DNA from: an uncultured bacterium
GTDB lineage: Bacteria > Cyanobacteriota > Vampirovibrionia > Gastranaerophilales > Gastranaerophilaceae
Reading direction: 5' to 3'
Length of the DNA stretch: 44,409 nt
Assembly: GCA_902801985.1 (NCBI GenBank)
Contig: CADCKD010000008.1
Coordinates: 1-44,409, forward strand
The notes under the pieces were generated by a model, which worked only from the letters and a program-made list of their open reading frames with translations, did not search any database and was not told the origin of the DNA. Below, piece after piece: positions 1,643 to 2,561 of the stretch. Position numbers and translations under genes: made by a program. Position 1 is the first letter of the stretch. Each line of letters starts with the position of its first letter.

Positions 1643-1960
1643 TTAGTTTAAACTGTTTTTTTCGCTTTCTTTAATTACGGAACATTGCTCTTGAAGTTTG
1701 TTATCTTCCATAGCATCTATCAGGGCTTGTATATTGTTAAATTTTTTCAGAGCAAAACCTGTTTCCGCAAGTATTACACAATCGTTGCAAAGTCTGTATT
1801 TATCATATTGAATAGATCCTGCCAAACATTTATTTTGACCGCAGCAATCACAATCAAAATATTCATTTGCCAAATCCGGATTTTCTTCCAAATCATCTTC
1901 AATCATTTGTGCTGCTACTTGTTGCATTTCTGCGATTATTTCTTCTTTTGATTTTGCCAT
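1643..1960 (-). CDS. Small Cys-rich protein, probable zinc binder
   Basis: A 105-residue protein of unknown function. Its middle holds a Cys cluster (CDCCGQNKC, then CNDC about 20 residues on) that looks like a treble-clef or ribbon zinc site. The N-terminal third is acidic and helical. The ATG abuts the stop codon of the upstream Xre-type regulator, and an AAGGA site lies inside the end of that gene, so the two are co-transcribed. No signal peptide or membrane segment is present. The pairing with a small repressor suggests a regulatory or toxin-antitoxin-like unit, but nothing in the sequence proves it. Confidence 0.6.
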   Translation of the reverse strand: MAKSKEEIIAEMQQVAAQMIEDDLEENPDLANEYFDCDCCGQNKCLAGSIQYDKYRLCNDCVILAETGFALKKFNNIQALIDAMEDNKLQEQCSVIKESEKNSLN

Positions 1961-2188
1961 TTATATTTCCTTTTCATCCAAGTTGTAAGAAACCTTAAAT
2001 CCCAAAATATCAGCAATCATCATAACTTCGTTGTACGGAATAGTTCCTCGTCCAAGTTTCTGCGACAACGAACTTACGGAATAATTTTCCTTTGTTTTTT
2101 TTGATATAAGTTCTGCTAATTTAGTTAAAGTTATACCTTTTAACGCTGTCATTGCTTTTATTTGTTCTTTGGCTTTAATGTTTTTCAT
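1961..2188 (-). CDS. Xre-family small DNA-binding regulator, probably leaderless
   Basis: A 75-residue helix-turn-helix protein. The pattern MTALKGITLTKLAELISKK, followed by SVSSLSQKLGRGTIPYNEV, is a lambda-repressor/Xre-type HTH covering almost the whole protein. The longer frame back to 2224 would start at a TTG inside the -35 box, so the ATG at 2188-2186 is preferred. The promoter -10 (2195-2200) lies 6 bases upstream of that ATG, so transcription should begin at or very near the start codon and leave no ribosome site. The regulator faces the broken gene at 2322 across a shared promoter region and probably represses both directions. Confidence 0.7.
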   Translation of the reverse strand: MKNIKAKEQIKAMTALKGITLTKLAELISKKTKENYSVSSLSQKLGRGTIPYNEVMMIADILGFKVSYNLDEKEI

Positions 2189-2194
2189 AATTTG

Positions 2195-2224
2195 ATTATA
2201 TAATATTATCTTTTTTATTGACAA
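2195..2224 (-). promoter_or_regulatory. Promoter of the Xre-type regulator
   Basis: On the minus strand a TTGTCA -35 (2219-2224) and a perfect TATAAT -10 (2195-2200) are 18 bases apart. The predicted start of transcription falls at about the A of the ATG at 2188. The -35 overlaps that of the opposite promoter. Confidence 0.7.
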
Positions 2225-2246
2225 ATTTTACAAATAAGAGTAAAAT
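2218..2246 (+). promoter_or_regulatory. Promoter facing the broken gene at 2322
   Basis: A perfect TTGACA (2218-2223) and TAAAAT (2241-2246) with 17-base spacing on the plus strand. Transcription would start near 2253 and leave a leader of about 70 bases. The leader has three related AT-rich boxes, ATATAA at 2251, ATGTAA at 2272 and ATATAA at 2295, spaced 21 and 23 bases, which could be operator sites. Confidence 0.65.
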
Positions 2247-2321
2247 ATTTATATAAACATTAAAAATTTTTATGTAAATATAAAAATAGTTTTTATATAA
2301 GTTAATACAGAAAGGAAAAAC

Positions 2322-2561
2322 ATGGAAAAAAGACTAAAAGAAATTTAACCTGACATTGCAGAAATACTGTTGTATGCATATAAAATAAAAGATGTTGTAA
2401 AAACAATATTATATGCAATGGATTTTTGCAGTGATGAAGAAAAAGACTCTGTCAGTGTTATTTCTGTTTTAGAAATACTTCTGAAAATAACGGATGAACA
2501 AATTGCGAAAATAGATGATTACAATACAAAGTTTTTAAAAATTACCTATAATATTGTGTAG
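2322..2561 (+). pseudogene. Small gene interrupted by an in-frame TAA at codon 9
   Basis: The ATG at 2322 has a strong AAAGGA ribosome site 6 bases upstream and a consensus promoter further up. The frame reads eight codons, meets TAA at 2346-2348, then stays open for 70 more codons to the TAG at 2559-2561. The later part (LLYAYKIKDVVKTILYAMD and onward) is well-formed helical protein. A single C-to-T change (CAA to TAA) would explain the break. No clear ribosome site supports a restart at the TTG at 2370. The intact protein would be 79 residues of unknown function, perhaps the partner of the divergent regulator. A real 8-codon leader peptide or stop read-through are the alternatives. Confidence 0.55.

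Follow-up and report, generated by a model that had tools for sequence, protein, structure and literature searches.

A regulator module with divergent promoters predicted to share one -35 box, a putative leaderless DUF6471-like repressor and a predicted operator over the partner promoter

The window, by which we mean the whole stretch of DNA analyzed here (44,409 nucleotides), lies in the 2.1-Mb assembly G000 of a gut-type bacterium and contains a control region of 135 bases from which two genes run in opposite directions, with one -35 box predicted to serve both. The features of this region and its surroundings are as follows:

1643..1960, minus strand: gene for a 105-aa protein with paired CxxC-like motifs, its ATG directly after the regulator TAA
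1961..2634, no strand assigned: inserted module of 674 bp, between pdxJ and the 105-aa gene
1961..2188, minus strand: gene for a DUF6471-like HTH regulator of 75 residues, predicted to be leaderless, with four helices and a predicted Cro/C1-like fold
2195..2200, minus strand: predicted minus -10, TATAAT, 18-bp spacer, predicted start at 2188, the A of the regulator ATG
2218..2224, both strands: predicted shared -35 heptamer, TTGACAA, giving TTGACA for plus and TTGTCA for minus
2218-2223, plus strand: predicted plus -35, TTGACA, 17-bp spacer to its -10
2224-2219, minus strand: predicted minus -35, TTGTCA, 18-bp spacer to its -10
2241..2246, plus strand: predicted plus -10, TAAAAT, 17-bp spacer, predicted start at 2253
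2245..2287: predicted operator dyad centered at 2266 (+13 of the plus start), with arms 2245-2265 and 2267-2287 that are 81% complementary
2309..2316, plus strand: Shine-Dalgarno-like AGAAAGGA ahead of the ATG at 2322, read from the sequence
2322..2561, plus strand: divergent small helical partner ORF of 79 codons, with an in-frame TAA at 2346-2348 (the ninth codon)

Sequence comparison indicates that the 674-bp module interrupts a tight pdxJ operon. In 29 relatives this operon is uninterrupted, and the gap between pdxJ and the 105-aa gene ranges from -1 to 120 nt, with G005, the sister genome, at 11 nt. A target-site duplication at the insertion was found neither by eye nor in the repeat list. 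The 105-aa gene now probably rides on the predicted leaderless transcript of the regulator. Beyond it, positions 178-1591 hold an apparent operon for a possible zinc-binding anti-sigma factor, an ECF sigma factor (523-1020), and an LTXXQ/Spy-like protein (1040-1591), which together look like an envelope stress unit.

The regulator is a relative of DUF6471 (Pfam PF20075) that itself falls below the membership line, scoring 18.4 bits (E 0.002) against a gathering cut-off of 26.8 bits, and one member of the same regulator family, L066, exceeds this cut-off with 30.7 bits. Neither the window regulator nor the partners could be assigned with confidence to a family of Pfam, NCBIfam, or PHROGs, and a sequence search of solved structures gave no match. 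Its AF2 model (pLDDT 81.5) consists of four helices, and the top Foldseek matches in the PDB, led by DdrO, ClgR, TP901-1 CI, and C.BclI (TM about 0.55-0.61, E values weak at 0.17 or worse), are mostly Cro/C1-type repressors and restriction-modification (R-M) controller proteins of the same HTH class. The literature searched contained no mention of DUF6471, nor of Melainabacteria together with the term "leaderless".

An earlier first-pass annotation of this DNA had proposed TTGACAA at 2218-2224 as a -35 element in both directions, with spacings of 17 and 18 bases. The proposal holds up well: the plus and the minus promoter each match the consensus at 11 of 12 positions, and a scan for a shared -35 in which both -10 elements had to match at 5/6 or better returned this site alone in the 44-kb window and none in 50 shuffles. 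Because the window is not enriched in promoter-like sites overall (15 versus 12.9 in shuffles), the significance of the site rests on its arrangement and on its relatives. The predicted starts lie 65 bp apart and the -35 is the common element, which places the locus outside the class of bidirectional promoters with overlapping -10 elements and starts 7-25 bp apart. On the minus strand, the -10 ends 6 nt ahead of the ATG at 2188-2186, with the A of this codon as the predicted +1. This ATG is favored over a longer TTG start at 2224 by alignment with relatives, and both the 6-nt distance and the lack of a Shine-Dalgarno site before the regulator recur in the relatives with the same promoter geometry.

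Relatives of the regulator are present in 44 of 59 related genomes, with up to 31 copies per genome, and a phylum-wide draw matched 79 of 194 genomes, 78 of them in the window's own family (its genus included) and one elsewhere in the phylum. At L013, L116, and L138, the regulator genes form tandem runs of three or four copies. The first set of relatives comprised 123 distinct start regions of family members, in 51 of which an exact TTGACAA lies 15-60 nt upstream and is directed away from the gene (shuffle mean 0.6), the commonest distance to the start being 28-29 nt. Loci of the family with TTGACA 26-30 nt from the start codon were termed class A, and a minus -10 in register for sharing the -35 was detected in 31 of 35 of these (first and held-out sets pooled; 3.9 expected by chance). 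Among the 26 first-set class-A loci whose minus -10 matches at 4/6 or better, 22 have a distance of 6 nt from -10 to start codon, and 3 have 7 nt. Another 38 start regions, held out as a second set, contributed 10 class-A loci, all 10 with the 6-nt gap and none with a Shine-Dalgarno site. Such a site is found in 18 of 31 family members with longer gaps versus 2 of 28 in class A, and the leaderless geometry fits 7 of 215 other genes versus 36 of 123 family members. Comparison of the relatives thus shows the promoter geometry and the constant leaderless gap, indicates that the predicted leaderless layout is conserved in the regulator family, and strongly supports the earlier pairing of a shared -35 with a predicted leaderless regulator. 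Class A falls mostly into one clade of the family tree. In a tree of 155 proteins the class-A state changes at least 14 times, so this geometry was inherited and kept rather than reinvented many times.

A dyad as strong as that in the window is rare in shuffles (P = 0.00025), and it has a counterpart across the family. When 72 non-redundant loci were anchored on TTGACA, dyad symmetry was strongest at +13.5 relative to the plus start (z 11.3), and smaller maxima appeared at +3.5 (z 7.0) and +23.5 (z 6.2); the main peak is present in each class and was repeated in the held-out loci (z 7.0). The paired bases form four blocks, or half-sites, at -6 to -1, +8 to +13, +16 to +20, and +28 to +32, and the half-sites recur as direct repeats at exactly 20 bp (z 7.1 and 8.0; all other offsets |z| ≤ 3.1), as expected if two dimer sites are set 20 bp apart. 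The position and the repeat of the predicted operator are thus shown by the comparison, and its place relative to the plus start is fixed whatever the layout of the minus promoter. It adjoins the plus -10 and spans the plus start, and the minus promoter and the minus start lie outside it. In the window, the half-sites are AT-rich and their spacing is nearer to a 21-bp than to a 20-bp repeat. The first-pass annotation had placed the binding target of the regulator at 2240-2310 and had described three ATRTAA boxes spaced about two helical turns. The location agrees with the predicted dyad, and the spacings among the three boxes meant are 21 and 23 bp. However, the leader contains four such boxes (2251, 2272, 2278, and 2295), the first two of them within the dyad, and three or more are found in 1.2% of shuffles; they are better read as pieces of an inverted half-site array than as three direct boxes. 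Co-variation between the recognition helix and the half-sites was not significant (Mantel r 0.03, P 0.09), so it gives no proof that the regulator binds its operator.

The frame of the partner ORF stays open beyond its TAA and is similar to intact partners, among them the one at L066 (phmmer E 3.5e-7 in a set of 37 sequences). With a stop at codon 9, the window partner is probably a pseudogene, unless this codon is an assembly error, and the plus promoter may no longer matter in the window since the gene that it serves is broken. The plus genes recognized in relatives most often encode a helical protein of 58-79 aa and sometimes a prepilin or a HAD-like protein, and a simple filter recognized none in a good third of the loci. 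Prepilin-like divergent genes (FTLAEVLITLGIIGVVAA) occur at L005, L010, L011, L099, L132, L141, and L158, in another branch of the family, where the plus -35 lies 18-20 nt from the regulator start, or 35 nt in L158. HAD-like divergent genes (TILIDLDGVLNEYKG) occur at L121, L125, and L139, which belong to different genomes.

Taken together, we consider it likely that this regulator/partner module of a lineage-specific family combines two divergent sigma-70-type promoters on one -35 box with a leaderless repressor, a two-dimer operator that closes the plus promoter, and self-reinforcement. The minus promoter would produce a leaderless mRNA for the 75-residue Cro/C1-like repressor; the mRNA from the plus promoter, for the small partner protein, would carry a leader and a Shine-Dalgarno site. 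Two dimers of the repressor, spaced by about 20 bp, would occupy the operator between the edge of the plus -10 and about +34, blocking the plus promoter and leaving the minus promoter uncovered; repression of the plus side would then help the minus promoter through the freed -35, resulting in a self-reinforcing repressed state. We infer repression, cooperativity, polymerase exclusion, and self-reinforcement from this layout. Since the layout recurs, with a precisely placed predicted binding site, in dozens of related gene pairs, it appears to be real and built to switch a neighbor gene off. As far as the sequences can tell, the most likely role of the regulator is to repress the plus gene, because the operator lies over the plus start and clear of the minus promoter, and its fixed place relative to the plus start points the same way. 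An either-or switch by polymerase exclusion, as was first proposed, is physically plausible, given that a single -35 hexamer has room for only one sigma factor. However, repressor binding is likelier to be the main switch than polymerase exclusion alone, as the operator sits on the plus promoter only. In a published study of five bidirectional promoters of E. coli, the two directions hardly competed at basal activity and did so only where one of them was strong (PMC12825309). The weight of polymerase competition would thus depend on how strong the promoters are; it may matter in the window because both promoters are near consensus, and if it does, self-reinforcement of the repressed state would follow.

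The two promoters could instead be real but independent, without meaningful exclusion, the regulator merely repressing the plus gene and the shared -35 being inherited for compactness. We regard this as possible, though somewhat unlikely. It would agree with the constant association of operator and plus promoter across all classes, even where no -35 is shared, with the largely single-clade, and so inherited, geometry of class A, and with the small basal competition in E. coli (PMC12825309). However, the near-consensus strength of both promoters in the window is the condition under which competition appears, and the seventh base of the heptamer, needed for the minus -35 only, is conserved more often in relatives with a shared -35 (A in 42 of 48 such relatives versus 34 of 59 others, P = 0.001). 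That the regulator chiefly activates its own promoter from the operator, with repression of the plus gene as a by-product, seems improbable: the operator does lie just upstream of the polymerase footprint expected at the minus promoter, with centers near -68 and -88 relative to the minus start, but this promoter is already near consensus, and members with other minus layouts hold the operator at the plus start and not at the minus start. Instead of serving as a protein operator, the dyad might act at the RNA level in the plus leader, as a hairpin or another control element, and the inverted repeat is indeed mostly inside the transcribed leader. However, one of the four conserved half-sites, the first (-6 to -1), is upstream of the plus start and untranscribed, which argues for a DNA site, and a hairpin has no need of the direct 20-bp repeats; we therefore give the RNA reading very little weight. 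Chance in an AT-rich genome can practically be dismissed, since the arrangement, for all the AT-richness of the leader and the ordinary frequency of promoter-like sites, never appears in the shuffles and recurs in held-out relatives.

Closest in layout to the switch proposed here is CvkR/cas12k of cyanobacterial CRISPR-associated transposons (PMC9938897), in which a leaderless small regulator is encoded at overlapping divergent promoters with 82 nt between the starts, and a palindromic operator lies on the target promoter, without sign of binding to the regulator's own core promoter (PMC9938897). The window module resembles it in its predicted leaderless small regulator, the overlapping divergent promoters in a short spacer, and the predicted operator on the target promoter. 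However, CvkR is of the MerR type, has another target, and both genes are leaderless, whereas the window has a DUF6471-like regulator, a target mRNA with a leader and Shine-Dalgarno site, and a -35 that is shared. In size, predicted fold class, and paired dimer sites, the closest systems are the R-M controller (C) proteins C.Esp1396I, C.AhdI, and that of EcoRV (PMC4041747, PMC5333194); C.BclI and C.Esp1396I are among the Foldseek matches of the regulator, and two adjacent dimer sites are found at family level in the four half-sites and their 20-bp repeat. A leaderless mRNA has been described for AhdI and mutually exclusive divergent promoters for EcoRV (PMC4041747, PMC5333194). In contrast to the window operator, which is on the opposite promoter, C-boxes are located at the C gene's own promoter. 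An R-M controller identity was rejected, as the neighbors are pdxJ, the 105-aa gene, and the partner ORF, with no restriction or methylation genes adjacent. Neither CvkR nor the R-M controllers are of the same family as the regulator.

Phage CI/Cro switches (lambda PRM/PR, TP901-1) likewise have divergent promoters, the Cro/C1 fold that is predicted for the window regulator, and repressor sites at the opposing early promoter. Lambda PRM and PR are not known to have a common -35. Unlike these phage repressors, the one in the window has no oligomerization domain and no phage genes around it. The mRNA of lambda cI is leaderless (PMC9938897). A phage immunity region was considered and rejected, since the module lies in a chromosomal pdxJ operon and phage records gave no match. 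The bidirectional promoters of E. coli and Salmonella share a -10 and have starts 7-25 bp apart (PMC12825309, PMC10268837); as in the window, a single DNA element serves polymerase both ways, here the -35 with starts 65 bp apart. Overlapping divergent promoters with a leaderless regulator are already known, and the window arrangement is a lineage-specific variant with a DUF6471-like regulator.

The proposed switch gives the DUF6471-type family a concrete regulatory logic with base-level operator coordinates, and it offers natural material for testing if two promoters become coupled through a common -35, and for asking what makes leaderless mRNA so frequent among small repressors that move horizontally. 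More tentatively, and we are rather doubtful here, these modules may belong to a family of two-gene cassettes that are confined to this bacterial order and enter operons; a leaderless repressor of about 70 residues and a shared -35 would then form a minimal bistable latch capturing new neighbors (here the 105-aa gene). In such a latch, the repressor would close the partner promoter, free the -35, and open its own promoter. As a separate observation, many T4-like-looking viral contigs (L161, L165, L172, L174, and similar ones) also contain a consensus shared -35 (ATTATA-TTGACAA-TATAAT), which mostly lies 25-26 nt before one conserved T4-like gene (..SEHYVNNKEFLAALIKY..) and not at the leaderless gap.
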